Below, piece by piece: positions 3,615-33,961 of a stretch of DNA of 34,179 nucleotides. The position numbers and the translations under genes are program-made. Below the pieces are notes generated by a model that saw only the letters and a program-made list of their open reading frames with translations, was not told the DNA's origin and did no database searches. How positions within the stretch are numbered: position 1 is the stretch's first letter; the number at the start of each line of letters is the position of its first letter. This DNA comes from Candidatus Omnitrophota bacterium (GTDB lineage Bacteria > Omnitrophota > Omnitrophia > Omnitrophales > Danuiimicrobiaceae): contig JAHFHD010000008.1 in assembly GCA_023247075.1 (NCBI GenBank), forward strand, positions 1-34,179, read 5' to 3'.

Positions 3615-3626
3615 TAATTAATTTTC

Positions 3627-3810
3627 GTAACTGTTTAGCTCTCTGAAGTTTCCATTGGTTGTCATCCTGAGCGCAGCGAAGGATCTAAGTTCACTAGATT
3701 CTTCCGCCAAAATACTGGCGGACAAGTCAGTTCGCCCCGCAGAATAAATTTGCGGGGCTCCTTCAGAATGACAAAAAGTCAAAAATCACTTCAAAGAGTT
3801 AAACAGACAC
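3627..3810 (-). mobile_element. MITE-like element copy B (184 bp)
   Basis: Ends GTAACTGTTTAGCTCTCTGAAG and rc GTGTCTGTTTAACTCTTTGAAG; perfect 8-bp flanking duplication TAATTTTC (3619-3626, 3811-3818). Confidence 0.92.
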
Positions 3811-7452: not shown

Positions 7453-7501
7453 TTAAGCAAATCATTCCATTGATTTTTATGAGACGGCGGTTAAAATGAA
7501 G

Positions 7502-7718
7502 GTGTCTGCTTAGCTTTATGAAGGCAAAGTCTCATTTCTTTTTTGTCATTCTGAAGGAGCCCCGCAAATTTATTCTGCGGGGCGAACTGAAGAATCTAGC
7601 AATCGCTAGATTCTTCGCGGAGTTTACCCTGAGCGCTAGATCCTTCACTCCGCGCAGCAGCCCTTTAGGGTCGTTCAGGATGACAACTAATGGGGACTTC
7701 AGAGGGTTAAACAGTTAC
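7502..7718 (+). mobile_element. MITE-like element copy C (217 bp)
   Basis: Ends GTGTCTGCTTAGCTTTATGAAG and rc GTAACTGTTTAACCCTCTGAAG; perfect 8-bp duplication AAATGAAG (7494-7501, 7719-7726). Confidence 0.92.
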
Positions 7719-7746
7719 AAATGAAGTAAAGGCTATTGCCGCGTCA

Positions 7747-11093: not shown

Positions 11094-14000
11094 GTGCAGT
11101 CGAGAGTGGTGTATCGAAAGTTCACTTCACTTTTTGTTCTCCTTTCTTTTTTCATTACCCAAATTACGCCACAAAGCTCACTTCTTTTTGCTCAAACTCC
11201 GATAACTATTGACCCAGCCGCCGGAAATCAGCAGCCTGAAACATCTGTTCAAGCTCAGCAAGCAGTAAGCCCAAGCGGGCCAGTTAATAGTAATACCACT
11301 CAAGATTTTCTTCTTGATACAGGGGGAATTTCACCTCCTACGCCTGAATCTCAAAGCACGAATACATTTCAAAATATTAAGACCAACACAAAAAGTCTTG
11401 CTAATGATACTGAAAATGCTACGCCAATCCGGGCAATTACAATTTCCAATGTAAATACTTTTGATGGAGCTTTCAATTATTCCTTTGATATTGATACTTC
11501 AAAAAATGCAGGAAGCGGTGCGCTCATTCGTAGCGATGGTGTTACGACTCCAGGGATGGACTACAAATTTGTAGAGTACACAGATACACAGTGGAGCGGA
11601 TGGTCAATCTTGAGGATTTTGACACCAAAGTATTCTTACACACCGGGAACAGCACGGGAAAATATTGATCCCACATATTTATTTCTTGTTAATCAAGACC
11701 GATCAGAGTTTACATTTTTAGGGACTTACAGAAATTCAGCTTCCACCACGGCAATACTTGAGGATGGAATGGACTTATCTCAAGATGCTTGGAAATTGAT
11801 GCCCAAATTTTTTCATGATCCATTGTCCTTGAGCGCCGAAGAGTTTCAAAAACTAACGAATGGATTTAAGACGACAAGAAATATTTATGAATCAGATAGT
11901 CCAATTTTTGGCGATAGCTTTACACCGATTTATCTCTCGACCATTCTGAAAGAATTAGCAAAACATCCAAATTATAATTTAGATTCAAATTTATCGGTTC
12001 GAATGTTTAGCGGACTCTCCCAATCTTTCACATTAAGCATGAGAGCGGACCAAGTGGAGCCAATAATTGAGCTGATGGCTGAAGTTTGGAGTACACTTTC
12101 TTTGTCGACGAAAAAGTTATTACTTACATTGCCGGGGAGCAATTTGAATAGTAAAAGTTGCAACCAGCTTGGAAAGTTGTTCATCAGTTACTTAGATAGC
12201 TACGCTCAAAGCTCTACGAGCCAAAGAGCTATTTTTGAGGAAACATCTTCTCTTTTGTCTTTGGCACAGCGAGTCGTTACAAATTTAAATGTCGACACTC
12301 ATCTGAAATCGCAAATCGTTGAGCGGATTCTTGAAATTTCTGCGGCGGTGCAGCCATTTCAAGCTCAGTTTGGAAACTCCAGTCATTTTAACATTATCAA
12401 TTTTATGGATGTGTTGCAAAAAAGTGGCGGGCTTGCGATCGATTTGAGTCTTTATGAAGCCCAGATGACGCTTATTTTGAGTAGAGTTTTGTCATCGCTT
12501 GCGCAAAAATCTGACTTCAATTTTTTTGATTTAGATGTTGTCAATAAGACATTCAACCACATGCTCCAATATGTGGAGCCATCTTTAGCGGGGTCATTGT
12601 TGAATCTTTTTATTGGAAACCAGCTTGCCAAATATCAAGGAAAGGCGGATCAGCTTAGATTGTTGATGAATGCGCTGAACTGGCCTATCTCGAATGTACA
12701 TCGAAACAGCATTAAGCAAATTGTTCTAGCTAAATTGAACGAAGGGTTTTCAAATTTTTCGTTGTCTGATTTGTCCACCATTGTTTCTTCTCAATCACCC
12801 AATGCGTACCAATTTTCGAATTACCAATTGGAATCAAAATTTTTCAACAATCTCATTAACGAATATTATTCGCGGATTCAGAATTTAGCACTTGATTCCA
12901 GTTCACGATCTCTTTTGGCCGAAATCATTGAGTTCGCAAAAAAAAGCCAAAATTTTGATCTGTTATCTCAGGAATTTTTAAGTCATTTGAAAGATTTCAA
13001 CCCAAAGTTTAATAATGAATCTGCCGAAGACTATGGAATTCGACTCCATAAAGTAGAGGAGCTTTGGACGCAGTTGGGGGTATTTTTAGTTGATTTGGGT
13101 GGTGGGATGAGACAGGGAGTTTATCGGATGGGAAATGGAAAAGCAGACTATGTTGATTTTGTCACGGGTGCTCTTAAAAATAGAGCTGGATGGATTCATG
13201 TAGTGGAATTAACAAGTGATAATGATCAGGGTAACGCGCGACCTATGTATGTCAAGTTAGGATGGAAATCCACGAATCCAATTGAAATAGTGGTTGGAAC
13301 TCTTATTCACGAATCAGGTCATGCAATGTTTGAAAGCGATGAATACCAAGATGGTGACATTGATCCGACCCGCGCTTTCTTTTTCAATGAAAACAGTCAG
13401 TGGAATAATCAGAATTTTGTTTCAGATTATGCAGGAAGTAACAATTTTGAATTTGTTGCAGAAACATATGAAGCTTGGGTTGTCGACAGTCGCTTATGGC
13501 TTGGAAAAGCGATTCAAAACTACCAAGAGGGGCATCCTTCCATGCTCAATATGTTCTTATTTTTGACTTCAAGGACGATGGGAGATGAATTGGCAGAGAC
13601 ATTTTTGTTCCCAATTTATAAATTAGACAAACAGACTGGACTTCTGGACGCAAAGTATTTTGTGGGTGTCTGGGAAATGGGGAGTAGGAAGCAGGGAATT
13701 TTTAAGTTTATTGTGGATGACAAATTATACTCTTTGACTTATACAAATTACCAAATTTCCAATTTGAATATAAGCGAAGCAGGAATTATACCGTTTACTA
13801 TATTTGATCACAATCAAAACGGTGTGTACAGCGCCACCGAAGCATTCGATGTACTCAGAGAGCGGATTGGTAATCATAATGACACCTATGTTACTTCGCT
13901 CAGAAACTTTTTTGAAAGTCATTTGAACCCTGAAGAAGTGAATCGCTTGAATCAATTGCTTAGCGATCCCGCTCTATTGAATCAGCACCATAATCAGCCA

Positions 14001-17000
14001 ACAATAACCGAAACCACTCATCAAATTTTTCTCGGGCGCCACACTCTAAAAATAGAAAGAGTCACAGATCAAACAGGTGGTATCAAAACCTTTGCCCGGA
14101 TTTACCAAACTGGAAACAGTCAGTCTTTTAAGGAGTGTGAAATTACATCTTATCCATTCGAACAGACCATTGAAACAGGAGGGATTTCTTACAAAGTGAA
14201 AATGGCAGACCAAAACTCAATCTCAATCACTCAAACCTTAAAAGAACTGGCTTTTGGTGCTGGCTCATTAACCGGTGCTGGCAATCTAAAGATTGAGAAA
14301 GTAACGAATGAAACAGGAACTCATACTTTTGCAAAACTATTTCTTCCAAACAGCACGGAAGCTTTAAAGGTATTTGAAATCAAGAATGATTTTGTGATTG
14401 ATGAAACAAATCCGAATGCGATGGTCATTAAAGCAACTTTGAGCGAACTGGACCAAACAGGAGCTAACAAAACGCTTACATTGTCAGTCTTTTCAAAATC
14501 TAACCCCAATGCAGACGCAGATCGATATGTCATTGGTGAACAGATTGCTTCTGACTTCTTAGGAAAAACAATTACCAAAGGAACAACCTGGCATGTTTCT
14601 GGCAGCGGAAGTACTTACAAGCTTGAACAAAGCAGTGCTTCTCTAAATGAATGGGGTGAAATATGGTCAGCGGAAAGCCCTGCCTACCAGACAGAGTCGT
14701 TTTTCTATGATCAAACAGGAAAAATGGTTATGAGTTTTGTTGATTTATTTGCAGGACGTAGAACACTTCCATCCCCACTTTCTGATTGTGATCTCAGCAT
14801 CATATTTGACTATTCCCAAGGTGGAAGCAACATGGTCACCCTCTATTCACGTACTAATGGTCATGAATTATTAAATGAAGTTTTTCAGACACTTAACGTG
14901 ATTCGTGACAACACAGGCTTTATCACAGGACTTAAAGGAAACACTATTGATGGAAAGACAGTTGAAATCACCCTTTCAAGAGATCAGGTTAAGTTTACGG
15001 TTGTACAAATTCTTAACGAAACCATCTTAAGCAATGGAACTTTAAAGATTGAGAAAGAATCAAATGAATCAGGGACTTCTATCACCTATGCCCGCTATTA
15101 TGAATCTGGAAGCGCACATTCATCCAAACAATTTCAACTGGATCGTACGAATCTCAATACAACAATTATCAATGCCTCTTTTGAAGACATCAAGCTCATC
15201 CGTCAAGCTTGGAACACGCTTTACACTCAAAGTGAAGTACTCACCCTTGAACAAAAGTTGATTGACGCAAAGTTAAACCTTCTTAAATCAAATCTCAAAC
15301 TTGACTTCGACGGCAACGGCAAACAAGACGCACTTTCAGATGGAATTCTTCTCCTCAGGTATTTGGCCGGCTTTAAAGGGAATGATTTAATCAATAATGC
15401 AGTTGACCCAAGCGTTCCAAACCTAACGGCTCAAATGGTGGAATCACGAATCGCACAAGCCATCACCTCAAATCTTCTTGACGTCTACACCACAGGCTCA
15501 AGTGACTTTGTAGATGGAGAATTCATCATCCGTTCTCTTTCTGGATTTACAGGCAATAGCTTAACGAATGGAATCTTAATTGCACCAAATCGCGTCATTG
15601 ACAAATATGGCAGTGTTTTTAGAGCCATGGATCAAAATCAAGATGGTGTTACGACAAGCAGTGAAGCATTCCAAGCTTTTCTTGAATTTCAAAACTCAAT
15701 TGGTGCATCACAAGGTCAAGCAGATTTTAACAGCCAATTTGATTTTAATCAGGACGGAGTCATCAATCTTTCAGATCGTGATTTATTTACGAATACAGTT
15801 CTTCCAGTGCTTTTGAATCCAGAAACTTTCTATGAAATTGGTTGGAGAAATTTGTTCCAAACAAAATTAGGTAGAGCCCCCAAAGGTGGAAAGGAAGAAT
15901 TGATTCAGAATTCTGACGGCACAGCTACTCTAAAGCAATACCGTTCAGATGGTAGTTTGCAAATCGAGGTCGTTTATGAGAACGCGACTTTAAAGAAGAT
16001 TTATCAAAAAGTGATTCATCATCTCGATGGCAGCAAAACGGAAGATGGCTACTATTATTACCCAGGAGCAGATGCGTATGAAAAAATTTTTTACGATCAA
16101 ATGGACAATATTATTGATGATTATGTGTTTGATTTGAGCACTTCCCAAAAAACTTTGGAGTACATCATGCGATTTTACCCCAATTCAAATATCAGGGAAA
16201 TTATTTACAATCTCGGCGGTGAAAATGGGTACCTCAAGGAAACTTATTCAATCAATGGCAACTATGAAGGAGCTTATTCCATCCCTCCTCCCCCAGAGGC
16301 GAATCCAAATTATGCATTTCCGCCGGATCTGGATGCGGTATTTGATAGCGAGATGCAACCATTCTTTAATTTATTGAAACAGAAAAATACAACTTGGGAA
16401 GAGGTGTACAACAGTTTTGTTTCATCGCACACATTTGAAACGGAAGCAGAGACACGAATTAAGAGTATTTATCAGACTCTTCAAAACCGTGAGCCAAGTG
16501 AAATGGAATTAGAGAAGGCACTTGATTTTCTGAGAGCAGAAAGAACGAAGTTTTCAGACATTAAAATAACAGAAGTAACGCGTGAAATTTCTCTTGGAGT
16601 GCACACCCTAAAAATAGAAAAAATCACAGATCAAACAAGCAATGTTAAAACCTTTGTCCGGATTTACCAAACTCAAAACAGCCAGTCCTTTAAGGAGTGT
16701 GAAATTACGTCTTACCCATTCGAACAAACGATTGAGATGGGAGGAATTTCTTACAAAGTGAAAATGGCAGACCAAAACTCAATCTCAATCACTCAAACCT
16801 TAAAAGAACTGGCTTTTGGTGCTGGCTCATTAACCGGTGCTGGCAATCTAAAGATTGAGAAAGTAACGAATGAAACAGGAACTCATACTTTTGCAAAACT
16901 ATTTCTTCCAAACAGCACGGAAGCTTTAAAGGTATTTGAAATCAAGAATGATTTTGTGATTGATGAAACAAATCCGAATGCGATGGTCATTAAAGCAACT

Positions 17001-19967
17001 TTGAGCGAACTGGACCAAACAGGAGCTAACAAAACGCTTACATTGTCAGTCTTTTCAAAATCTAACCCCAATGCAGACGCAGATCGATATGTCATTGGTG
17101 AACAGATTGCTTCTGACTTCTTAGGAAAAACAATTACCAAAGGAACAACCTGGCATGTTTCTGGCAGCGGAAGTACTTACAAGCTTGAACAAAGCAGTGC
17201 TTCTCTAAATGAATGGGGTGAAATATGGTCAGCGGAAAGCCCTGCCTACCAGACAGAGTCGTTTTTCTATGATCAAACAGGAAAAATGGTTATGAGTTTT
17301 GTTGATTTATTTGCAGGACGTAGAACACTTCCATCCCCACTTTCTGATTGTGATCTCAGCATCATATTTGACTATTCCCAAGGTGGAAGCAACATGGTCA
17401 CCCTCTATTCACGTACTAATGGTCATGAATTATTAAATGAAGTTTTTCAGACACTTAACGTGATTCGTGACAACACAGGCTTTATCACAGGACTTAAAGG
17501 AAACACTATTGATGGAAAGACAGTTGAAATCACCCTTTCAAGAGATCAGGTTAAGTTTACGGTTGTACAAATTCTTAACGAAACCATCTTAAGCAATGGA
17601 ACTTTAAAACTAGAGAAGAATAGTGATCAATCCGGAACCGCAAAAGTTTTCATGCACATCACTCCTTCAGATGCTTCACAGCCTGCTCAGGTATATGAAG
17701 TCACTCAAGGCGAATCTTTAAACAAGATTGTGACACTAAGTAATATGTTGTATGCAGTGAAGGTCAATGAACAGCTTGCAGTTTCAACCGTCAACATTAC
17801 CGCTCTTGTCACAGAGATCATTGATCAAAACAAAGATGGAATCCTTGGAGCACAGGAAGCACTCAAAGGATACGTTGATTTCCGTGCAGCAGCCAAGTAC
17901 TACATTCTTGGAGATACTCAAATGAGTCCACCGCAATACGACTCAAATCACTATGACTTAAATCAAAACGGAACCTTCACATCCGCAGACCTTACACTTT
18001 TCACCAGAGCTTTTAAATTGAGTGTCACCGAAGCAGTCTGGAATCAATACAGTGCATCTGTAGCAGCTTTCACGACCATCGATCAAAATAAAGATTGGAC
18101 CATCAACGCACCAGAAGCATTTGCCGTACATCTCACCCTCACCACCCAAGAATGGCAAAAACAAGGCAGCGGTCTCAAATGTGACTTCAATCAAGACGGT
18201 GTCACTAACGACCTTGATAAATCAGTTTTTATGAGCACTCTTCAAACCGTCTCGAGCACCTTAGAGATGAACAGGTTTAATGCTTTAACCCGTACATTTA
18301 CAGCCATGGATCAAAATCAAGACGGCATCGCAACAGCAAATGAAGCCTTTGCGTTGCTGACAACCCTCAAAACAACCGAATGGTCCAAACAAGGCAGCGG
18401 TCTCAAATGTGATTTCAATCAAGACGGCAGTGTTGACATTAAAGACATTTCATTTTTTGTGAGCACCCTTCAAACCGTCTTAAGCGCATCAGAGATGACG
18501 CGGTTTAATGCTTTAAGTGCAGTGTCCAGTCAAATTGGACAGCTCTACCAAGAGCGATTGGGCAGAGACGCTAAGCTTGAAGAATTAAATGCATGGATGG
18601 ATTTGGTTCGAATACAAAGCGACATTCGCATTGAATCCATTCAAGGTCAAATGAATGAAGCAATTGATAAAATCAAAGTCGAGCAAATCATCGCAGCTAA
18701 TCAAAACACCATTCTAAAAGGTAAAAACATTTCTTTTGATGTCATGTTTGAAGTATTAAAAGAAGCAGTAAAAAATCACAAAGGAAGCGGTCTTGCGGTT
18801 CAACTAACCACAGCAACTGTTTCAGGTTCTACTTACCAAATTAAATTTACTCGCTCAGATACTCAAGAGGCAACGCTCGCGAGCTTTCGTGTTGAAAGTG
18901 GAAAGGTGCTTTGGACAAGCAAACAAGTTTATTACCCCAGTAGCAGTTCTCTCAAACTCCAAATTCTTTATCATCTGGACGGAAAGACAGTAAAGTCAGA
19001 AAACGAATACAGTCTCAAAGGCAAACCCATCCGCTCTGTCATAAGAGACACGCAAGGAATCGTTCTCTCAGCCACTGAAACTGATTATCAAACCGATGGA
19101 ATCACAAGAGCGAAATACAGATATTATGGGTCAAATAATGTTTTGGCGTATGAATACGCGTATCAATCAGATGGATCGACATACAAAACGGTGACTTATT
19201 ACTACCCAGGCGGAACACTGGTTAAATCCGAAACCCAATACAATGAAAAAAATAAGCTTAAGAGCCAGGTAACCAAAGACCTTTCTGGAGCGGTGACGTC
19301 CTATGTGCAGTACGACTACCAAGCGGATCAAGTCACCCTTCTAGAATTCAGAAATTATTTGCCGAATCAAACGGGTTTAATCAGCCGGTATGTCTACCAA
19401 GCCGATGGAAAAACGATGAAGTCTTCTACTTTTTATCATCCAGATGGAGTCACAGTTAATGCAGAGTATGAATACAATGAAAAAGGAAAAGTGACCCGAA
19501 GTGTTCAAAAAAATCTACAAGGCGTAGTTACATTTTGCCAAGTAACCAGCTATTATTCAGATCAAGTCACCCGGTTTGAAGAGAAGCGTTATCAAGCAGA
19601 TCAGACTACCCTTGCAAGTGATTACCTTTACCGCTCAGATGGACAAAACCTTCAAAAGGTGACGAACTATTACCCCAATAGCTCAATCATCCAATCAGAA
19701 AGTGAATTTAACGCAAAAGGAAGAATTACATGGACCACACAGCGAAACACCCAAGGTCAAATTACTTCTTACATAGAGGTGCGTTATCTTACGGATCAAA
19801 CTACTCGGTCAGAAGTAGCTTATTACCGGGCCAATAAAACGCTTTCATCCGTCACTGCCTTTTACCCAGCCACCCAAAAAACACAATCCATTACTTCTTA
19901 TGCCGCCAATGGAACTACTGTTACCGGCACGACTCGCTATGACACAACCGGGAAACAGATTGCGTAA
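11094..19967 (+). CDS. Giant (2957-aa) exported multidomain protein: signal peptide, HExxH zincin-like domain, EF-hand/dockerin-like calcium loops, internal duplication, C-terminal tandem repeats
   Basis: Single ORF with N-terminal hydrophobic segment (FTSLFVLLSFFITQITPQSSLLFA); HESGH at 13308-13322 with downstream FVAETYEAW; repeated DxNxDG loops (DQNQDGVTTSSEAF, DFNQDGVINLSD, DFDGNGKQDALSDGILLLRYLAGF); C-terminal YYP.G..KSE.YN.KGK repeats. Confidence 0.85.
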   Translation: MQSRVVYRKFTSLFVLLSFFITQITPQSSLLFAQTPITIDPAAGNQQPETSVQAQQAVSPSGPVNSNTTQDFLLDTGGISPPTPESQSTNTFQNIKTNTKSLANDTENATPIRAITISNVNTFDGAFNYSFDIDTSKNAGSGALIRSDGVTTPGMDYKFVEYTDTQWSGWSILRILTPKYSYTPGTARENIDPTYLFLVNQDRSEFTFLGTYRNSASTTAILEDGMDLSQDAWKLMPKFFHDPLSLSAEEFQKLTNGFKTTRNIYESDSPIFGDSFTPIYLSTILKELAKHPNYNLDSNLSVRMFSGLSQSFTLSMRADQVEPIIELMAEVWSTLSLSTKKLLLTLPGSNLNSKSCNQLGKLFISYLDSYAQSSTSQRAIFEETSSLLSLAQRVVTNLNVDTHLKSQIVERILEISAAVQPFQAQFGNSSHFNIINFMDVLQKSGGLAIDLSLYEAQMTLILSRVLSSLAQKSDFNFFDLDVVNKTFNHMLQYVEPSLAGSLLNLFIGNQLAKYQGKADQLRLLMNALNWPISNVHRNSIKQIVLAKLNEGFSNFSLSDLSTIVSSQSPNAYQFSNYQLESKFFNNLINEYYSRIQNLALDSSSRSLLAEIIEFAKKSQNFDLLSQEFLSHLKDFNPKFNNESAEDYGIRLHKVEELWTQLGVFLVDLGGGMRQGVYRMGNGKADYVDFVTGALKNRAGWIHVVELTSDNDQGNARPMYVKLGWKSTNPIEIVVGTLIHESGHAMFESDEYQDGDIDPTRAFFFNENSQWNNQNFVSDYAGSNNFEFVAETYEAWVVDSRLWLGKAIQNYQEGHPSMLNMFLFLTSRTMGDELAETFLFPIYKLDKQTGLLDAKYFVGVWEMGSRKQGIFKFIVDDKLYSLTYTNYQISNLNISEAGIIPFTIFDHNQNGVYSATEAFDVLRERIGNHNDTYVTSLRNFFESHLNPEEVNRLNQLLSDPALLNQHHNQPTITETTHQIFLGRHTLKIERVTDQTGGIKTFARIYQTGNSQSFKECEITSYPFEQTIETGGISYKVKMADQNSISITQTLKELAFGAGSLTGAGNLKIEKVTNETGTHTFAKLFLPNSTEALKVFEIKNDFVIDETNPNAMVIKATLSELDQTGANKTLTLSVFSKSNPNADADRYVIGEQIASDFLGKTITKGTTWHVSGSGSTYKLEQSSASLNEWGEIWSAESPAYQTESFFYDQTGKMVMSFVDLFAGRRTLPSPLSDCDLSIIFDYSQGGSNMVTLYSRTNGHELLNEVFQTLNVIRDNTGFITGLKGNTIDGKTVEITLSRDQVKFTVVQILNETILSNGTLKIEKESNESGTSITYARYYESGSAHSSKQFQLDRTNLNTTIINASFEDIKLIRQAWNTLYTQSEVLTLEQKLIDAKLNLLKSNLKLDFDGNGKQDALSDGILLLRYLAGFKGNDLINNAVDPSVPNLTAQMVESRIAQAITSNLLDVYTTGSSDFVDGEFIIRSLSGFTGNSLTNGILIAPNRVIDKYGSVFRAMDQNQDGVTTSSEAFQAFLEFQNSIGASQGQADFNSQFDFNQDGVINLSDRDLFTNTVLPVLLNPETFYEIGWRNLFQTKLGRAPKGGKEELIQNSDGTATLKQYRSDGSLQIEVVYENATLKKIYQKVIHHLDGSKTEDGYYYYPGADAYEKIFYDQMDNIIDDYVFDLSTSQKTLEYIMRFYPNSNIREIIYNLGGENGYLKETYSINGNYEGAYSIPPPPEANPNYAFPPDLDAVFDSEMQPFFNLLKQKNTTWEEVYNSFVSSHTFETEAETRIKSIYQTLQNREPSEMELEKALDFLRAERTKFSDIKITEVTREISLGVHTLKIEKITDQTSNVKTFVRIYQTQNSQSFKECEITSYPFEQTIEMGGISYKVKMADQNSISITQTLKELAFGAGSLTGAGNLKIEKVTNETGTHTFAKLFLPNSTEALKVFEIKNDFVIDETNPNAMVIKATLSELDQTGANKTLTLSVFSKSNPNADADRYVIGEQIASDFLGKTITKGTTWHVSGSGSTYKLEQSSASLNEWGEIWSAESPAYQTESFFYDQTGKMVMSFVDLFAGRRTLPSPLSDCDLSIIFDYSQGGSNMVTLYSRTNGHELLNEVFQTLNVIRDNTGFITGLKGNTIDGKTVEITLSRDQVKFTVVQILNETILSNGTLKLEKNSDQSGTAKVFMHITPSDASQPAQVYEVTQGESLNKIVTLSNMLYAVKVNEQLAVSTVNITALVTEIIDQNKDGILGAQEALKGYVDFRAAAKYYILGDTQMSPPQYDSNHYDLNQNGTFTSADLTLFTRAFKLSVTEAVWNQYSASVAAFTTIDQNKDWTINAPEAFAVHLTLTTQEWQKQGSGLKCDFNQDGVTNDLDKSVFMSTLQTVSSTLEMNRFNALTRTFTAMDQNQDGIATANEAFALLTTLKTTEWSKQGSGLKCDFNQDGSVDIKDISFFVSTLQTVLSASEMTRFNALSAVSSQIGQLYQERLGRDAKLEELNAWMDLVRIQSDIRIESIQGQMNEAIDKIKVEQIIAANQNTILKGKNISFDVMFEVLKEAVKNHKGSGLAVQLTTATVSGSTYQIKFTRSDTQEATLASFRVESGKVLWTSKQVYYPSSSSLKLQILYHLDGKTVKSENEYSLKGKPIRSVIRDTQGIVLSATETDYQTDGITRAKYRYYGSNNVLAYEYAYQSDGSTYKTVTYYYPGGTLVKSETQYNEKNKLKSQVTKDLSGAVTSYVQYDYQADQVTLLEFRNYLPNQTGLISRYVYQADGKTMKSSTFYHPDGVTVNAEYEYNEKGKVTRSVQKNLQGVVTFCQVTSYYSDQVTRFEEKRYQADQTTLASDYLYRSDGQNLQKVTNYYPNSSIIQSESEFNAKGRITWTTQRNTQGQITSYIEVRYLTDQTTRSEVAYYRANKTLSSVTAFYPATQKTQSITSYAANGTTVTGTTRYDTTGKQIA
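14184..15046 (+). repeat. Internal duplication copy 1 (863 bp) within the 2957-aa ORF
   Basis: Reads as identical to 16746-17608 at constant offset 2562; encodes ISYKVKMADQNSIS...ILNETILSNGTLK. Confidence 0.9.
16746..17608 (+). repeat. Internal duplication copy 2 (863 bp) within the 2957-aa ORF
   Basis: Reads as identical to 14184-15046. About 155 bp upstream of each copy also aligns but is diverged (LGRHTLKIERVTDQTGGIKTFARIYQTG vs LGVHTLKIEKITDQTSNVKTFVRIYQTQ). Confidence 0.9.
18930..19960 (+). repeat. C-terminal degenerate tandem repeats of the giant protein (RHS/YD- or MORN_2-like)
   Basis: Recurring blocks YYPGGTLVKSETQYNEKNKLKSQ / FYHPDGVTVNAEYEYNEKGKVTRS / YYPNSSIIQSESEFNAKGRITWT, each followed by a D/NQxTxxExxxY segment. 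Confidence 0.65.
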
Positions 19968-25108: not shown

Positions 25109-25215
25109 GACTACCTCCTGCGTACTTTAAATGCGCAAATTGTAGATTTGTCTCAATTAAGTCCATATTGGCAGAGCAGAACAGGCCAATCAATAAAAAA
25201 GCTTGCTATTTAAGG

Positions 25216-25432
25216 GTGTCTATTTAGCTTTATGAAGTCACTGCTTCATTTCTTTTTTTGTCATTCTGAAGGAGCCCCGCAAATTTATTTGCGGGGCGAA
25301 CTGAAGAATCTGGCAATCACTAGATCCTTCTCGGAGTTTACCCTGAGCGCTAGATCCTTCACTTCGTTCAGGATGACAAGCGAAGGGCTCAGGATGACAA
25401 TCAATGGGGACTTCAGAGGGCTAGACAGCTAC
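25216..25432 (+). mobile_element. MITE-like element copy D (217 bp)
   Basis: Ends GTGTCTATTTAGCTTTATGAAG and rc GTAGCTGTCTAGCCCTCTGAAG; perfect 8-bp duplication ATTTAAGG (25208-25215, 25433-25440). Confidence 0.92.
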
Positions 25433-25582
25433 ATTTAAGGTGTTGGGCTGGATCAGGTAAAAATATGCAGACCTAAATGGTTGATTAGTAGGCATTTGCA
25501 TGCTAAATTTTACCTAATAAATAGATATTAAGTTTTTTTATTAAGTACTTTATTTTATGGTGAAAGGCGTGTCCCGAAAATA

Positions 25583-28500
25583 ATGCCGCTAAAGGCTGTA
25601 AAACTACTTGTCCCAAAATCCATCTCACTCCTCCTTTTGATTGTTTTCACAGTCACCACACTTTCACGCGAGACAGCATTTGCAAGTCCAGTAATTCCTG
25701 AAGCTAATCCTGTTGAGGAATTACAAGCGCAGACAAGTCATCTCACCATTCCCAAAATGCTCGGGACAGTTTTGGCAAGTCATAAGACTGGTTCCCCTCC
25801 CATCATCCTCATTGAAGATGCTCATTCAGTTCCGGAAGCACAGAAGAATATTGAGCGAATCATCCGGTATGTTCAGAAGAAATATGGCGTTCGTGTGGTG
25901 GCGTCTGAGGGGGCTTCAGGCAAGCTTGAGCCCGAACTGCTTAAAAGTTTTCCAGATGCGAAGCGCTTAAAAACGATGGTTCGAAGTTACCTTGAAGCAG
26001 GTGAAATGACTGGAGTCACGGCTTCTGCAATTTTAAATACCGTAGGACACGCACCTGAATACATTGGCGTAGAAAATTGGGCGCTTTATGAAGAGGGACT
26101 TCGCAATTACTTTGAAGCAGCAAATCAGGAACAGTCAATTTTAAAAGCAATAACTCAAGAGACAAAAATGCTTGAGCAGAAAAAGAAAGAAATTTATTCT
26201 GAAGAATTACTCAAATCAGACCAAATTCTAAATGATTTTGATGAGAACAAGACGAGTTTTATGAAAGTGCTTAGGAAGCTTTCACAGATTAAAAGCCCTC
26301 AAAGCGTAGGGCAGAGTCATGATTTTTTAATGCTTAAGACAATTCTTAAGGAAAGTCTTAAAACAGAAATGGGAAATGAGAAGTTGAAAGTAGAGATTAA
26401 AACTCTCGCAGAAGAGGTGAAGAAATCATTGGGGAGTCCTGCATTCACTCGAATATTCAATCAAAAACTCCAGGCTTTTCAAACTTCTCAAATGTCAGCG
26501 GGGGAGTTTGGTTTATTTTTAAAGAAGTTTTCAGATTTACGTCGCGAGACGTCTCCGCACATGAGCATGTCGAAGGTGCTTGAAGATGAAATTAAAATTC
26601 AAAGGCAGATGGAGAGCGTTGGAGGAGCCAAGCTTTCTAAAGAATTTGAGACATACGCGAAACGGCTTAAGGAAAACTTGTTTCAAAGTATGGAAGAAAG
26701 AAATCTCGACCAAGAAAGCAAAACCTTAAAACTTCTTAAAAAACTTGCCAAACTTGAGCTCAGCCGCGAGGAGTGGGAAGAAGTCAAGCTGTTGGAGGTT
26801 GGTAATATTTCTCCAATTGCAGTTTCCTATGTCACCCTGAGCGAAGCGAAGGGTCTCGGTTCCCTAGATTCTTCGGCTCCGCCTCAGAATGACATGCGGA
26901 CTATGGACTTTTTATTTCACTTTCAATTGAGTTTCTACCACAACGCTGAAAAGCGCGAAGCCGCGATGCTTGGGAATCTTAATTCATTTTTAGATGAATC
27001 AAAAATTGATTCGACAACCCGAAATCATCAACCCTCAATTCTGGTGGCGGGAGGATTTCACGCAGAAGGGCTTGTGCAAAAGTTGAAAAAGGAAAAACGT
27101 TCCTACATTTTAATTTGTCCAAGGGTTGATGTTCTCCCAAAAGAATCCAAATACCGCATGCATATGCAGGGAAATGTGTCGTGGAAAAAGTATTTTCAGG
27201 TGAAAAATGGGCACGTAAATTTGTATGACGCGTTTATGCGCGGCGCGAGGGACCGATTATTAGTAGGGGCGGGTTTAGAGCCCGCCCCTACGCTCCGGCT
27301 CTGGCGTGACCAAATCATCCGCGATTTAGCTCAAGCAGAAAAACTGGATGAAGCCTGGCAGTACACTAAAATTCTGGATGAAGTTTTGGTTTCCAAAAAA
27401 ATGGAAGAGTCTCATTTTCTTGAGCAGAAGTTAAGCAAGCTCCACCATTTTGTTGATGGCCTTCGCTATTTACATCAAACCCAATTATTGACGGAACCCA
27501 ACATTTTAAAACTTTTGGGCCAATCCAAAGTCGTTGCACCAGCACTCGCCAGCGCACTTTCACAAAACTCAGAAATCCGTTCTGAATTTATTGTAGATGA
27601 TCAGGACAGTCCTGACCGACATTCTCCAGCAAAGCGTGAAAGCAAATCCGGAGATGAGGCTTTAAAAGCAAGAGTAAACCAGGAAACCGTTACTTTAATG
27701 ATGCGGGAATTATTTTTTTCTAAAAATCTTTCTCTTACTCCAAAATTGAAGCGACATATTCTCAGCACATTTCTTCCAGACTCAGTCATTGAAAAAGTGG
27801 GTGAAGACAATTTTTCAATTAAGCGAGACCAAAATGAATTAACAATCAGCACCTCTGAAAAGCAACAATTTTTTAATGTAAAGATTTATGTCGGATTGAA
27901 TCAAGACGTGCTGATTTTGAACGCTGGGCAAATAACCGGAGTTAATGGAGAACAAATTCCTGAATTCGGGAATGTCTTACCTAGCTACAGGCAATACGGT
28001 CTTCCATTTTTTGCCTGGTGGTATCAAACAAAACTGAAACCTTTTGCTCGCCTGTTGATGGTGAAAAATGTTTGGATGCAAAGTTCTCTCGTACAAATGA
28101 ATCAAACAGTAAACATGTTTGGCTTTCAAACTACTGGAAATCAGATATGGACAATTGACCCTAATAAGAATTCAAACCATCAACCGAAGTCGGAGCTGCG
28201 CAACAACTCTTTGCCTGTCATCCTGAGCGGAGCGAAGGATCTAAGTTCGCTAGATTCTTCGGCTTCGCCTCAGAATGACATAAATATGAATATGCAAAAC
28301 ACAACAGTTAATAAAGCAAGGGCCGAGCTGCGCTACACTGAAAATAGTCTCAAAGCAATGATTAATAAAGGCGCCGCTCAGTCCTCGTTGCCCATAGCGA
28401 TTAATCAGACGAGGGCCGAGCTGCGCAACTTTGGGAATTATTTCAAGGCAAGGATTTCTGAGATGGCAGAGCAATTCAAAATAACGACTCAGCAGGAGGC

Positions 28501-31500
28501 TGTAAAAAATGCTGATGAAAAACCTTCCGAGCTTTCATTAGGTCAAGCCAATCAAATTTCAAAGGAAGTGGTGCGGGAATTAATCAGGCTCCAATCAATC
28601 GGACTTGCTTCCCCGGACATCACTATTATTGATCATACCGAACTTGGATTTTCAACTTTGGGAGAATTGAGTTCATACCTTGAGAATATCCCAACTGCCG
28701 CCGCCTTCCTCTATTTTGATTTTCCTGTAATCAATGGTCTTACCAATTTAGGGCAATTACTTAGAGGTCTGGGTCTAGAAGCTGCTTCAAATCCACGCAT
28801 CAGAGCAATTGACAGTGTTGATTTCAATGCTGTGTGTGCATTTATTTTACAAATGTCATCTGCTGCCCAAATTCATGTATTTGATTTTTCTAATGGGCAG
28901 TGGCAGAAAGAAACACAAATAGTGAAGCGCGCCAAACTATTTCTCTCAACGCTTTCAAAGTTTTTTCTTCCGTCCCTTCATAAATCTTCTGACGACGATT
29001 TGAAAAAAATATTGGCACAATTCAACCAAACACGGGCTGCCAGAATTTCTGAAGTCAATTCAAGCCTAGTGAATACTGACCTTTCAACACTGGCATTATT
29101 TGCAGAAGGAAATCGGCTCAGATCAGAACTTGATGAAGTGATGCTGGCAATTTATGAGTCTAATCAAAATACTCACGCGGCACTTCAAGCTTTAAGGCGC
29201 ATCGACTTCGAAGCTTCTAAACTTCAGGATCAAGCGATGAACATAATCAATGGAAATTTAGAAGAAATTTTTCAGGTAGAGCAATACATCATAGGATTGC
29301 GTGATTTAATAAGAGAAACGGAATATAAATTAGTGCACACACCCGCGCAATTTAGAAATGCCCTTCACGCACAATATTCAAATGTTAATGAATCTGCATC
29401 CGCCCTTTTTAAAACTATTTTTCACAGTCAAACGCTTGTCATTCCAAATGAAGATCAAATCCTTTCTTATTCAGGCATCCTGAGAAAGGGCGTTGAAATT
29501 TTCACTCGCGGTGTCCTAACCCGTTCTCCATATATAAACATCAGCGTTTTGGTGTTTATTCAGCAAGATGCTCCTTGGAATATGGGACTTAAAATGGTGG
29601 TGAAACCTGATGACAATCAGACGGGAATTTATCAGCATATTTCATTTGAAAATTTAGCTTTTAGATTAGAAGGAGTCGACAACTTTAATTCCTACCTCCT
29701 TACTTTCCACGAGCGCTCATCTGGCATTTATGAGGCCCAAATTTCCAATGTTGAACCGGGGAAATACTCAGTTGAAGTATTAAATTCTACGGTCAGGCAT
29801 GACCCAAACCTTCGGAGAAGCCATTCGGAGCTGCGCAACATTGAAAGTAATTCCAAAGCAAACATTAATGAAAGCGCCGCTCAGTCCTTACACCATTCCA
29901 AGGGTGTGAGAGCTGAAACGCGGCAGGAGAATGATGAATGGATTGCGGGATTTTCTGAGCCGTTTTCAGAACGTCCAAAGGCATTGAGTCCGGGTGAAGA
30001 TCCGCGTCCAAATCAAGATGCATGGTTTGCTCAAACACTTGATAACGGTGTTGTGATTGCAGGAGTTTTTGATGGAGTTCGCGCAGAAAAATTTAGCTAT
30101 GAAGCAAGTCACACAGCTTGCGATGCGATTGAAGTTTATCTTTCAGCCCATTTGACAGATTCCCCGCAAAACATTAATTCCAGTCAAGCAACTCAAATTC
30201 TTCAAGATGCCATGCAAGAAGCCCATCGGGCAATTACCAAAGGAGCGACAACAGCTACGGTAGCTCTTCTTTTGCCGCGACACGGTCTACAAGAAAAGCG
30301 CTTCTTTGAGCTGTGGGTTGCGAATGCAGGCGACTCACGTGCTTATTTATGGACTTCCTCTCAAAAGATTGAGCGGCTCACAGTGGATTCGTTTCAAGGC
30401 GACGGAAAGGCGACTATTTTGGACCTCGACGATGTTAGAAGACATAATGGTCACTTAATACAAGAGAAAAATGTGCTTGAGGAAAGACAGGCAAAAGCGC
30501 ACCAAATTGGCGACTATGGCTTGCGTCAAGAATTAGCGTGGGAAAAATGGGAACACGAATTTTTAGGAAACGTACTTGGAAATGCTGATGAAAGCTATGT
30601 CCCTGTCATTACTAGAGCCGTGATTCCTTTAAATTCTAGAGTACTGCTTTTTACCGACGGAGTTTATCGATTGTTGAAAAGAGATGAAATGGAAAAGATT
30701 ATCGTTGGTGACATAATTAATCAAAGGCCTGGAGCTGGCTGGAGCGGACGTGGTTCGACTGCGCAAACAATACTAGCTGCGATTAGAGGCGAACTTAAAA
30801 AGAAACGTTTTATTGGTTTGGATGATCAAACAGCGGTTATTCTTAACATGTCTCCGTACCCTTCTCTCAGAGATCACCTTGCTCAGAGTTCAGTCAGCAA
30901 AAGTAAGTCAGAGCTGCGCCACACTGAAAATAATTCCAGAGCGTTCATTAATCCAAGCGCCGCTCAGTCCTTGCTACCCACAACAGTTAATAAAGCAAGG
31001 GCAAAGCTGCGCCACAACTCTTTGCCTGTCATCCTGAGCCATTCGCTTGTCATCCTGAACGAAGTGAAGGATCTAGCGCTCAGGGTAAACTCCGCGAAGG
31101 ATCTAAGTTCGCTAGATTCTTCCGCCACAGTGCTGGCGGACAAGTCGGCTTCGCCTCAGAATGACATAAATATGAATATGCAAAACTCAACAGTTAATGA
31201 AGCAATGGCCGAGCTGCGCAATGCTAAAAATAGTTCCAATAAGATTATAGATCAACAAAGAAAAAAATCTGGATTACAACCTCACGAACTTGGCGCAATG
31301 GTTACCAGGTTAGTGCATGTATTTACATCGTGGACTCAGGTGGTTGAAAGTGAACTTCTGCGGCGGCCAGGACTTACGGAACAAGTGATTAAAACTGAAT
31401 TGAAATATTTTTTAGGGCCTGAAACAGGGCGTCATGCACGACACAACCCAGAATTTTCAGATCAACTATTTTGGTCGCGTACCAAACATGACGATGAAAC

Positions 31501-33961
31501 CTATTTCCCAGAAGAAGACCGCCAGAGGCTTGAAACAGTGGTGGATCAAATGATTCCAGAAGAAGGGACAGTTCTCGATTTAATGGCGGGCGCTCGCTCA
31601 AGTTTTTCAAAACAAAAGAGAGAAGTGGTTGGGCTTGGTTTGACCCAGAAGGCGCTAGAAAGCAATAAAGTTTTAACACGTTTTCTCGTTCACGATCTAA
31701 ATCAAAATCCAAAACTCCCGCTTGAAGAATCGTTTGACGCCATTGTTATTTCATTTGGGCTTATGTATTTAACCAATCCTCAGCAAGTGCTTGAGTCTGT
31801 TTTGAAACATTTGAAGCCTCAAGGGAAATTGATTGTGATTTGGCATGAGAATATTTGGGATTTTGATTTAGCCACTAATGTTTGGAACGTTCCTCAGGCT
31901 TATGGATTTAAAACCAGAGAGGCGCTCATAAACCATTACTTTAAACAAGCCGGTTTTGAGAATATAAAACGAGTAAAAGATCAACAGAGCGGTTTTCACA
32001 TCGCCACAGGCAGCAGACCAGTACAAAATGAAAGTATTGCTCAGTTCTTACTACCCACAACAGTTAATTCAAGAACTGAGACACGCAACCATAATGAAAA
32101 CAATGGATTAAATTTTGTTTTAAAAATGAAAAAATTTTTCAATCAACATTGGCAACCGGTAGTGACAGGAGTTTTAATGATTGGATTTGCTTACTGCCGC
32201 GTGTATGGTTGGGTGCACGAAATTGGGCACTTAATTGCTCATCACCTCACGTTTGAGCAAGCGGCTGGTTTGCTTAAGCTGAAATTTCTTCCAGGCTCAA
32301 TGTATGTGCTGACTCATTTTGGAAATCTTTCGAGCTTTGGGGAGTGGCTGGGTTATGATCGATCTCGAGCATTTATTCTGTATGCGGGCGAGGCTTTTGC
32401 GTTTGTTATTTTAATCCCGCTTTTTATATTGCTCACCAAACAATTGTCCCACCTCAATCGTCTTTTGGGTCATTTTCTAGCATATGCGGTACTTTATCTC
32501 TCTACCACACCTCTGCTTGATGCGCTTTACGGCCCTTGGGTGCAACAACCAATCACTGATTTCTGGCAGGCGTATTATTTTTTTAAAGGCCAGCATCCTC
32601 TTCTACTTGCACCTTTTTTGGCTGTTCTTCCGTTCGTCGTGTATTGGATTTTTAATCGGATGGATATTTTTAAAGTTTCCGGTGAAGGTGGAAATATTAT
32701 TAAGAAAAGCTCTGCCCCGAAGTTAACACAACCTCAATCAACGATTCAAGGACAAAACTCCAATCATCCCGAGCTGCGCCACTTGGCTGTCATCCTGAGT
32801 GACCCTAAAGGGCTGCTGCGCGGAGCGAAGGATCTAAATTCGCTAGATTCTTCGGCTTCGCCTCAGAATGACATAAATATGAATATGCAAAACATGACAA
32901 TTAATAAAAAAAAGGCCGAGCTGCGCCACTTTGAAAGTAGTTCCAGAGCATTAATTAATCAAAGCGCAACTCAGTCCTTGCTACCCACAACAGTTAATGA
33001 AGCAAGGGCCGAGCTGCGCCACTTTGAAAGTAGTTCCAGAGCATTAATTAATCAAAGCGCAACTCAGTCCTTGCGCCGTACCATGGACGCAAGGGCCGAG
33101 CTGCGCAGCCCAGTAGCACAAGAAGCAGCAGAAGCGGAACTGTACCGCAATTTGGATTCTTACTCAACGAGTGAGAAAGCAGAACAACTCGCCATATTAA
33201 TTTTAAATAGTTCAGATGATTTTGAGAATTTCTTAAGTGAGTTTGTGCAAGCAGTGGAAGAAATTTTTGAGAAAGAATCTGGCGTGATTGGTTTGAATGG
33301 CACTCGCGAGGAGGCCAACCTTAATCCAGAGGTGATTCAATTGGCTGAGAAGCTTCGCGCTGCACTTAAGTCGCGTCTGAGTAAAGAAATAAAAGCAGCG
33401 TTCGTATTTCCAAAGGAGATTTTAAATGCAAAGGACGCCCAAACTCGCGCAGAAGAACTTTCTCAAACCGGTATGGCTATTGTTCAAGCAGAGGAAGCGT
33501 TTCAGAATGTGAGCCTTGACGTTTTTTCTGGCGGCGATGAAACTCAAATTTTGCGCCATCATTTTAATCGAGCGCTTAAAACAAAAAAGGCTGCAACCGA
33601 ATTGCAAAAGCGAACTCGCTTTTTAGTGAGCGATTTTCCTGACGCGACTTCATATGATGTAGTTGGTTCTGCAGAGATTAATCCAGCCTCTTCTCATCAA
33701 ACAGTTCAGTGGTTTCGGTTTGACCGTTTCGGTGATGGCACCAAAATTGAAGCAAAGGATGGAGAGCCTGTCGGACCAAGTCTAATGCTTGCAATGCTTG
33801 CTTCAAACGTGTTGCTGAGAGAAGACTTGGATGATTTGATTCAATTTGATCAAAATGGTGTTGCCTCAATTAAAAATAAAACTGCACTCAGTGTTTTTAA
33901 TCTTCTCCGACAAATGCTGGTTCAAGCAAAGACGGACCAAGTCAGACTTGAAGCTGCATAG
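25583..33961 (+). CDS. Giant (2792-aa) polyprotein-like ORF: TraB/ChaN-like domain, orphan domain, PP2C phosphatase, SAM methyltransferase, HEIGH membrane domain and orphan C-terminus, separated by repeat-encoded linkers
   Basis: Single uninterrupted ORF; N-terminal hydrophobic segment (ISLLLLIVFTVTTLSRETAFAS); distinct domain signatures listed as separate features; RAELR linkers between them. Confidence 0.85.
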   Translation: MPLKAVKLLVPKSISLLLLIVFTVTTLSRETAFASPVIPEANPVEELQAQTSHLTIPKMLGTVLASHKTGSPPIILIEDAHSVPEAQKNIERIIRYVQKKYGVRVVASEGASGKLEPELLKSFPDAKRLKTMVRSYLEAGEMTGVTASAILNTVGHAPEYIGVENWALYEEGLRNYFEAANQEQSILKAITQETKMLEQKKKEIYSEELLKSDQILNDFDENKTSFMKVLRKLSQIKSPQSVGQSHDFLMLKTILKESLKTEMGNEKLKVEIKTLAEEVKKSLGSPAFTRIFNQKLQAFQTSQMSAGEFGLFLKKFSDLRRETSPHMSMSKVLEDEIKIQRQMESVGGAKLSKEFETYAKRLKENLFQSMEERNLDQESKTLKLLKKLAKLELSREEWEEVKLLEVGNISPIAVSYVTLSEAKGLGSLDSSAPPQNDMRTMDFLFHFQLSFYHNAEKREAAMLGNLNSFLDESKIDSTTRNHQPSILVAGGFHAEGLVQKLKKEKRSYILICPRVDVLPKESKYRMHMQGNVSWKKYFQVKNGHVNLYDAFMRGARDRLLVGAGLEPAPTLRLWRDQIIRDLAQAEKLDEAWQYTKILDEVLVSKKMEESHFLEQKLSKLHHFVDGLRYLHQTQLLTEPNILKLLGQSKVVAPALASALSQNSEIRSEFIVDDQDSPDRHSPAKRESKSGDEALKARVNQETVTLMMRELFFSKNLSLTPKLKRHILSTFLPDSVIEKVGEDNFSIKRDQNELTISTSEKQQFFNVKIYVGLNQDVLILNAGQITGVNGEQIPEFGNVLPSYRQYGLPFFAWWYQTKLKPFARLLMVKNVWMQSSLVQMNQTVNMFGFQTTGNQIWTIDPNKNSNHQPKSELRNNSLPVILSGAKDLSSLDSSASPQNDINMNMQNTTVNKARAELRYTENSLKAMINKGAAQSSLPIAINQTRAELRNFGNYFKARISEMAEQFKITTQQEAVKNADEKPSELSLGQANQISKEVVRELIRLQSIGLASPDITIIDHTELGFSTLGELSSYLENIPTAAAFLYFDFPVINGLTNLGQLLRGLGLEAASNPRIRAIDSVDFNAVCAFILQMSSAAQIHVFDFSNGQWQKETQIVKRAKLFLSTLSKFFLPSLHKSSDDDLKKILAQFNQTRAARISEVNSSLVNTDLSTLALFAEGNRLRSELDEVMLAIYESNQNTHAALQALRRIDFEASKLQDQAMNIINGNLEEIFQVEQYIIGLRDLIRETEYKLVHTPAQFRNALHAQYSNVNESASALFKTIFHSQTLVIPNEDQILSYSGILRKGVEIFTRGVLTRSPYINISVLVFIQQDAPWNMGLKMVVKPDDNQTGIYQHISFENLAFRLEGVDNFNSYLLTFHERSSGIYEAQISNVEPGKYSVEVLNSTVRHDPNLRRSHSELRNIESNSKANINESAAQSLHHSKGVRAETRQENDEWIAGFSEPFSERPKALSPGEDPRPNQDAWFAQTLDNGVVIAGVFDGVRAEKFSYEASHTACDAIEVYLSAHLTDSPQNINSSQATQILQDAMQEAHRAITKGATTATVALLLPRHGLQEKRFFELWVANAGDSRAYLWTSSQKIERLTVDSFQGDGKATILDLDDVRRHNGHLIQEKNVLEERQAKAHQIGDYGLRQELAWEKWEHEFLGNVLGNADESYVPVITRAVIPLNSRVLLFTDGVYRLLKRDEMEKIIVGDIINQRPGAGWSGRGSTAQTILAAIRGELKKKRFIGLDDQTAVILNMSPYPSLRDHLAQSSVSKSKSELRHTENNSRAFINPSAAQSLLPTTVNKARAKLRHNSLPVILSHSLVILNEVKDLALRVNSAKDLSSLDSSATVLADKSASPQNDINMNMQNSTVNEAMAELRNAKNSSNKIIDQQRKKSGLQPHELGAMVTRLVHVFTSWTQVVESELLRRPGLTEQVIKTELKYFLGPETGRHARHNPEFSDQLFWSRTKHDDETYFPEEDRQRLETVVDQMIPEEGTVLDLMAGARSSFSKQKREVVGLGLTQKALESNKVLTRFLVHDLNQNPKLPLEESFDAIVISFGLMYLTNPQQVLESVLKHLKPQGKLIVIWHENIWDFDLATNVWNVPQAYGFKTREALINHYFKQAGFENIKRVKDQQSGFHIATGSRPVQNESIAQFLLPTTVNSRTETRNHNENNGLNFVLKMKKFFNQHWQPVVTGVLMIGFAYCRVYGWVHEIGHLIAHHLTFEQAAGLLKLKFLPGSMYVLTHFGNLSSFGEWLGYDRSRAFILYAGEAFAFVILIPLFILLTKQLSHLNRLLGHFLAYAVLYLSTTPLLDALYGPWVQQPITDFWQAYYFFKGQHPLLLAPFLAVLPFVVYWIFNRMDIFKVSGEGGNIIKKSSAPKLTQPQSTIQGQNSNHPELRHLAVILSDPKGLLRGAKDLNSLDSSASPQNDINMNMQNMTINKKKAELRHFESSSRALINQSATQSLLPTTVNEARAELRHFESSSRALINQSATQSLRRTMDARAELRSPVAQEAAEAELYRNLDSYSTSEKAEQLAILILNSSDDFENFLSEFVQAVEEIFEKESGVIGLNGTREEANLNPEVIQLAEKLRAALKSRLSKEIKAAFVFPKEILNAKDAQTRAEELSQTGMAIVQAEEAFQNVSLDVFSGGDETQILRHHFNRALKTKKAATELQKRTRFLVSDFPDATSYDVVGSAEINPASSHQTVQWFRFDRFGDGTKIEAKDGEPVGPSLMLAMLASNVLLREDLDDLIQFDQNGVASIKNKTALSVFNLLRQMLVQAKTDQVRLEAA
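25780..27130 (+). other. Domain in giant ORF: TraB/PrgY/TIKI- or ChaN/EreA-like (tentative)
   Basis: PIILIEDAHSVPEAQKNIERIIRYVQKKYGVRVVASEGASG and SILVAGGFHAEGLVQKLKKEKRSYILICPRV resemble the paired motifs of that superfamily. Confidence 0.45.
26829..26894 (+). repeat. In-frame palindromic repeat in giant ORF (VTLSEAKGLGSLDSSAPPQNDM)
   Basis: tgtcaccctgagcgaagcgaagggtctcggttccctagattcttcggctccgcctcagaatgaca matches the intergenic repeat core. Confidence 0.85.
27263..27291 (+). repeat. In-frame perfect hairpin encoding VGAGLEPAPT
   Basis: gtaggggcggg-tttagag-cccgcccctac, 11-bp perfect stem inside the coding frame. Confidence 0.85.
28187..28455 (+). repeat. RAELR linker block 1, including in-frame TGTCATCCTGAG...CTCAGAATGACA cassette
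   Basis: Encodes SELRNNSLPVILSGAKDLSSLDSSASPQNDINMNMQNTTVNKARAELRYTENSLKAMINKGAAQSSLPIAINQTRAELRNFGNYFKARI. Confidence 0.85.
29818..29935 (+). repeat. RAELR linker block 2
   Basis: Encodes RSHSELRNIESNSKANINESAAQSLHHSKGVRAETRQEN. Confidence 0.8.
29980..30860 (+). other. Domain in giant ORF: PP2C-type serine/threonine phosphatase
   Basis: RPNQDAWFA, IAGVFDGV, GATTATVALL, WVANAGDSRAYLW, VLLFTDGVYRLL, GLDDQTAVIL; the expected metal-binding aspartates are all present. Confidence 0.85.
30899..31235 (+). repeat. RAELR linker block 3, including the longest in-frame palindromic cassette
   Basis: Encodes KSELRHTENNSRAFINPSAAQSLLPTTVNKARAKLRHNSLPVILSHSLVILNEVKDLALRVNSAKDLSSLDSSATVLADKSASPQNDINMNMQNSTVNEAMAELRNAKNSS. 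Confidence 0.88.
31540..32010 (+). other. Domain in giant ORF: class I SAM-dependent methyltransferase
   Basis: EEGTVLDLMAGARSSF (motif I), SFDAIVISFGLMYLTNPQQVLESVLKHLKPQGKLIVIWHE, HYFKQAGFENIKRVK. Confidence 0.8.
32015..32105 (+). repeat. RAELR linker block 4 (degenerate)
   Basis: Encodes RPVQNESIAQFLLPTTVNSRTETRNHNENN; shares ctacccacaacagttaat with blocks 3 and 5. Confidence 0.7.
32130..32680 (+). other. Domain in giant ORF: polytopic membrane domain with HEIGH motif (possible M50-like protease)
   Basis: GWVHEIGHLIAHHL within a hydrophobic region, HEIGH at 32216-32230; later TTPLLDALYGPW could be a diverged second metal motif. Confidence 0.45.
32765..33108 (+). repeat. RAELR linker block 5, with in-frame palindromic cassette and a 93-bp tandem duplication
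   Basis: Encodes HPELRHLAVILSDPKGLLRGAKDLNSLDSSASPQNDINMNMQNMTINKKKAELRHFESSSRALINQSATQSLLPTTVNEARAELRHFESSSRALINQSATQSLRRTMDARAELR; 32914-32980 reads as identical to 33007-33073. Confidence 0.9.

Follow-up and report, generated by a model that had tools for sequence, protein, structure and literature searches.

Unrelated proteins punctuated by a recurrent pentapeptide in giant ORFs of Omnitrophota suggest exported polyproteins

Introduction

Why does a single bacterial reading frame run without interruption through several unrelated proteins, and what are the similar linkers at their boundaries? The question is raised by a 2792-aa ORF in a 34,179-nucleotide stretch of a Candidatus Omnitrophota contig, the whole of which was analysed (hereafter, the window). 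Giant Omnitrophota ORFs longer than 20 kb and with membrane helices were described previously in a paper whose searched text calls their roles 'poorly understood', credits most of them with few annotated domains and considers them possible adhesins (Seymour et al. 2023, PMC10066038). As far as that text goes, the ORFs analysed here resemble them in phylum, in lengths >20 kb and in membrane helices; a punctuation peptide, a shared head, a dialect, Cys depletion and complete metabolic enzymes are not described in it. A further paper, which cites this work, terms their 'post-transcriptional integrity ... unclear' (PMC12057145). Our literature search found nothing linking Omnitrophota with polyproteins (a possibly related preprint, West-Roberts 2023, was outside the search), and in the excerpted text of a deep-biosphere metatranscriptome study 'Omnitrophica' and 'polyprotein' appear once each. 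A punctuation peptide with a genome dialect makes the role and integrity of these ORFs a testable statement.

Results

Organisation of the 2792-aa ORF

An intact ORF had been proposed from the sequence alone, and no internal stops interrupt it. Its parts are listed below by window coordinates, all on the (+) strand.

25583..33961 (+): giant polyprotein-like ORF, 2792 aa, with 4 Cys among 2792 residues
25583..25684 (+): signal-peptide-like N-terminus, hydrophobic stretch, AFA|S; a hydrophobic 14-mer precedes 38 of 39 heads
25718..27229 (+): head domain of ~500 residues (alignment of 38 heads; AlphaFold pLDDT 85)
26830..26895 (+): palindromic repeat copy, in frame within the head (pLDDT <50 at residues 408-439)
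28187..28426 (+): linker 1, KSELR + palindromic repeat + RAELR unit + RAELR
28427..29821 (+): orphan module, without Pfam match up to E 1 except one spurious weak one
29822..29923 (+): linker 2, HSELR unit ... RAETR
29924..30904 (+): PP2C phosphatase module (Pfam part 30005-30679, E 2e-12, aa 1475-1699)
30905..31219 (+): linker 3, KSELR unit, RAKLR, palindromic repeats, MAELR
31220..32014 (+): methyltransferase module (Pfam part 31616-31837, E 4e-7, aa 2012-2085)
32015..32086 (+): linker 4, partial unit ending RTETR
32087..32764 (+): membrane module with HEIGH motif, from the sequence; no Pfam match
32765..33106 (+): linker 5, HPELR, palindromic repeat, KAELR, RAELR, RAELR
33107..33958 (+): C-terminal orphan module (Pfam scan)

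Several unrelated proteins share this chain, PP2C and methyltransferase among them, and between the head domain and the first orphan module lies a helical stretch. The sequence-only reading had placed RAELR-type linkers at five sites and all five carry them; every boundary is marked by a linker with (R/K/H)xELR or RxETR. Pfam bore out its PP2C and methyltransferase assignments and left the module at 28427-29821 an orphan, as proposed. For the HEIGH membrane domain the motif is present in the sequence and the Pfam match is absent. The claim that linkers avoid domains is correct for PP2C and methyltransferase, which contain none, and fails in the head, which holds a palindromic copy. The linker blocks had also been taken for one repeat, and here the reading was wrong: they comprise two unrelated things, the RAELR unit and the palindromic repeat KDLSSLDSSASPQND.

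The motif R[AS]E[LVAMTI]R occurs five times in the ORF, whereas the maximum in 2000 protein shuffles is three (0/2000 reach five); the looser [RKH]xE[LVAMI]R occurs nine times vs 0.5 expected. No relatives of the PP2C module were found in other genomes of the order at 1e-8, therefore no comparison was possible for this module. Pfam gave no match in the ORF to MARTX-type toxin, repeat or cysteine-protease domains. An element VGAGLEPAPT at 27263-27292, also in frame, resembles another translated interspersed repeat.

A head domain shared by giant ORFs of the phylum

At least 24 long ORFs of the same genome carry the head, the 2792-aa ORF among them. The long ORFs measured there sum to 65,855 aa, ~8.6% of 2.28 Mb, a total that includes a headless second giant of the window and several ORFs cut by contig ends. 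Across the phylum the head was present in 141 of 286 sampled genomes, and in a search of named genomes with an alignment of eight heads as query all head loci (64/64) belonged to Omnitrophota. Heads open ORFs as long as 15,709 aa.

In the 38 aligned heads H81, E109, G162, E164, Y452, R458 and GGFH490-493 are invariant. The AlphaFold model predicts disorder at the residues encoded by the palindromic copy. His/Glu motifs stand at both ends of the domain, including a C-terminal GxxH, a pattern like that of the TraB/PrgY/ChaN/Tiki/EreA superfamily. The N-terminal domain had been read as TraB/ChaN-like, and family matches and fold comparison support this weakly: ChaN/Tiki (PF04187) matches 3/38 heads (best E 0.006) and TraB (PF01963) 1/38 (E 0.003), while Foldseek gave no match at E <0.001, the highest probabilities among the matches listed being 0.21, 0.16 and 0.14 for HopBA1, 3b55 and the erythromycin esterase EreC. 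Both hhalign of the head against E. coli YbaP and a profile search of the PDB with the head were negative; with the weak Foldseek result, this argues against TraB proper. The comparisons weakly suggest a relationship to a family containing proteases, and the motifs, which recall the Tiki/ChaN/EreA group, make the head a possible candidate for the protease that would cut the giants.

A pentapeptide conserved as peptide

The conserved core of the linkers is R-[AS]-E-[LVAMTI]-R, with up to 34 copies per giant in the order. We counted 394 copies in 25 giants (178,246 aa), 3-34 per ORF vs 0.01-0.33 expected per ORF. Of 52 permuted or substituted motifs all but one gave counts of 1-25, and the exception has RAEAR in common with the real motif. 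Another 64 loci from named Omnitrophota, whose genomes partly overlap with those of the first set, gave 220 motifs vs 3.4 expected. Shuffles and permuted motifs thus rule out chance or composition as the source of the excess. In giants from further genera and families within the order, the top 5-mer is RAEVR, RSELR, RSEAR, RSEVR or a near variant. The long linker consensus proposed earlier survives as a RAELR unit at the boundaries of the 2792-aa ORF; the essential element is RxExR and not the 30-aa consensus.

Synonymous codons are used freely within the motif (in one genome, G025, 16 RSELR copies are encoded by 16 different DNA 15-mers), and the sequences flanking the motif in giants of the order are mutually unrelated. 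Therefore it is the peptide that is conserved and selected, and the motif is not a DNA repeat; with distinct codons and unrelated flanks, DNA similarity does not account for linkers across the order. In one family (f1), pairs of motifs often enclose a spacer of ~30 aa.

RxExR is absent from head-bearing giants of other classes, therefore the code is not phylum-wide. It is also absent from some head-bearing giants within the order (G013, G020 and G022).

Complete enzymes between motifs

In six giants mapped with Pfam, whose domains cover only 3-25% of each ORF's length, one of 143 motifs fell within a domain vs ~15 expected, and that one lies in a weak, spurious IMPDH envelope drawn over sequence that in fact belongs to the beginning of an aldolase. 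The clearest cargo is that of an 11,858-aa ORF of Omnitrophica RIFCSPLOWO2_12_FULL_44_17 (G001), in which a complete phosphoglucose isomerase (PGI) stands alongside some ten further enzymes (transketolase, PfkB kinase, Glu/Leu dehydrogenase, a PLP enzyme, hexokinase, phosphoglucomutase, CofD, UDP-glucose pyrophosphorylase, KDPG aldolase and transaldolase). The PGI is complete (486/486), starting a few residues past RSEAR and ending just ahead of RAEAR.

The motif adjoins the native N-terminus of embedded PGIs in G001, G018 and G036 and directly follows the native C-terminus in G001 and G018; a PGI fragment lies behind RSEAR in G035, and G017 encodes PGI as a free-standing 560-aa gene. The neighbours of the three embedded PGIs differ (in G018, a member of the amino-acid kinase family). 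Both PGI active-site signatures are intact in all three, and their identity to one another and to the free-standing PGI is 45-58%. Related genomes, examined for the linker as the sequence-only reading had suggested, join other proteins with the same motif, and the motif keeps outside domains; both results strongly support the proposal that it is a processing site or a tether between units. The native start of the embedded PGIs has no Met, and the residues after the motif show no excess of Met (1.8% vs 2.0%), which makes internal translation starts after linkers unlikely. The predicted structure of the motif region around PGI has a pLDDT of 46, the alignment being too shallow.

No Pfam family was found in a 6546-aa giant of the genome of the window. 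A eukaryote-type hexokinase (PF00349) occurs in giants of two Omnitrophota families (L270, L272) and is absent in 14/14 control genomes. Modules of ~70 aa with a transmembrane helix, and the motif on each side, recur after the head (L125, contig C42 of G001, from 14126 onward).

Leaders and Cys depletion

Hydrophobic leaders stand ahead of the head in 38 of 39 cases. Cys makes up 0.15% of residues in the giants of the genome of the window vs 0.98% in its other ORFs (~7-fold lower), and 0.07% vs 0.91% in G001 (13-fold lower), where, of nine enzyme units examined in the 11,858-aa ORF, seven contain no Cys and two contain one each. Cys is near normal in G013 giants and in several other classes. 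The depletion fits an oxidising compartment and, together with the leaders, argues well for export of the giants, as judged from sequence. Transketolase is also encoded outside the giants in G001, therefore the polyprotein copy is an extra one.

Genome dialects and alternative peptides

Where a genome has two or more giants, they tend to agree in the x4 residue of the motif (0.70 vs 0.27 by shuffling; 0/5000), despite differing cargo. These dialects are best accounted for by a trans-acting reader with drifting specificity. Other short peptides recur between unrelated flanks, namely G[AR]SLGE, ASSLGE, PAGFG, [GA]ARL[AS] and TDASGAAP, in giants of G013, G015, G009, G067 and G231 (L109, L112, L106, L286-L287 and L291). 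G[AR]SLGE, PAGFG, [GA]ARL[AS] and TDASGAAP are apparently used as alternative punctuation in other lineages.

Local DNA repeats and an insert in dnaX

In the genome of the window the RAELR unit is a DNA repeat of 64-86% identity, and the 30-aa unit was found there only in the 2792-aa ORF and in dnaX (L039, 3084-5015 (-), contig C20). In dnaX a 34-aa RAELR unit interrupts the clamp-loader domain in frame, and it is absent from all dnaX relatives found. Both motif ends of the insert are altered (QAELR, RAEP), which in this single case would avoid cutting. The palindromic repeat gave 55 alignments genome-wide, many of them on other contigs. A single DNA repeat in frame within unrelated genes was thus found only for the 30-aa unit (2792-aa ORF and dnaX) and for the palindromic (SLDSS) repeat. 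The long 30-aa repeat is a local elaboration that was also inserted into dnaX.

Discussion

Proposed exported polyproteins and rival readings

We give a probability of about two in three to the reading that the giants are exported polyproteins, started by the head and cut at the motif by a co-evolving, genome-specific protease acting in trans, with release of unrelated cargo. A signal peptide would carry the chain out of the cytoplasm; the conserved head would begin it, and complete, unrelated cargo proteins would follow, spaced by a recognition peptide in flexible linkers (R-[AS]-E-[LVAMTI]-R in the order, a looser [RHK]-x-E-L-R in the genome of the window). A protease with genome-specific preference, for which the head itself may be a candidate, would then cut at the peptide and free the units outside the cytoplasm, perhaps in the periplasm, at the surface, or in a host or prey cell. 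The motif punctuates the chains between units, and the simplest reading of the five-residue peptide is a signal for cutting, as in viral polyproteins. Against this reading stand the cargo enzymes normally needing cytosolic ATP, the head-bearing giants with no RxExR, the near-normal Cys content of G013 and several other classes, and the low Pfam coverage of the ORFs. We see even odds for a broader claim: that a large share of the proteins exported by the lineage (at least 8-9% of the coding capacity of the genome of the window) is produced as giant polyproteins; that between unrelated proteins a short punctuation code, read in each cell by a single co-evolving protease, takes the place of start and stop; that the codes drift (RSELR, G[AR]SLGE, [GA]ARL[AS], TDASGAAP); and that the products include extracytoplasmic, Cys-free carbohydrate enzymes.

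The chief rival is a multi-enzyme chain that stays uncut, its pentapeptide serving as a docking or hinge motif for a partner (a scaffold, surface anchor or secretion receptor), possibly as a one-piece extracellular coat. Genome dialects and conservation at the level of the peptide would follow just as well from a binding partner, and PMC10066038 reads giant Omnitrophota ORFs as single surface proteins. We nevertheless hold it unlikely: complete enzymes have the motif at their native ends in place of a start or a stop, the doubled motifs of f1 are as expected for excised spacers, and chains of 5,000-15,000 aa would bring many unrelated enzymes to one place.

The sequence-only reading had offered, besides the polyprotein, a stop-free repeat that fused genes. 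Such a mobile element, spread in frame into coding sequence and without function at the protein level, would account for the local RAELR repeat, for its insertion into dnaX where relatives have none, and for the palindromic copy in the head, and to this extent, for the 30-aa unit and the palindromic repeat only, the proposal stands. As a general cause it is refuted for the order as a whole by the variation of codons and flanks in other genera; per-genome dialects and exact placement at domain boundaries are not expected from it either, and we regard it as improbable. Less credible still, and very unlikely, is that the giants are functionless degenerate concatenations or assembly artefacts. Many modules do lack a known family, but many independent assemblies contain stop-free ORFs as long as 47 kb, Cys depletion and motif are maintained, and the embedded PGIs keep their signatures and their identity to one another and to the free-standing enzyme.

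Comparison with known systems

The polyprotein principle is already known in viruses, Euglena and nematodes. In the Euglena RbcS/LHC polyproteins (PMC4938576), a targeted precursor likewise consists of units linked through a short conserved peptide, which is cut out following import; these are eukaryotic repeats of one protein with observed cleavage, whereas the Omnitrophota giants are bacterial and carry unrelated cargo, and their cleavage is predicted. Nematode polyprotein allergens (PMC3079579) are also secreted tandem precursors cut post-translationally into free units, but they are eukaryotic and consist of copies of one small lipid-binding protein, unlike the giants.

Among bacteria, two further comparisons apply. 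In Rickettsia, palindromic elements are DNA repeats inserted in frame into genes. The SLDSS repeat and dnaX insert of the genome of the window resemble them, whereas RxExR recurs in the order as a peptide and not as a DNA repeat. MARTX toxins are giant secreted bacterial chains from which several effector domains are released by proteolysis. They serve here as a comparison system (PMC6254334). By contrast, no domain or repeat of MARTX type was found in the 2792-aa ORF, and the giants occupy dozens of loci in a genome, use a pentapeptide code and have metabolic cargo.

If true, the polyprotein reading would mean genome-scale polyprotein expression in bacteria, export of sets of metabolic enzymes by host-dependent nanobacteria, and a natural code for tagging and cleavage from which proteases might be mined. 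For annotation, giant ORFs should be split at the motif ahead of domain assignment.

Other repeats of the window

Intergenic repeats of a few hundred bases lie at 1959-2211, 3624-3777 (inverted), 7495-7722 and 25209-25436; one of them is just upstream of the 2792-aa ORF, and pieces are common with the palindromic repeat inside it. The second giant ORF of the window (11094-19967, 2957 aa; entered at 2984 aa in the total of long ORFs) is without head or motif and has a Cys content of 0.34%. It carries D-x-N-x-D-G repeats (EF-hand/dockerin-like) and a 300-nt direct repeat (14003, 16565).
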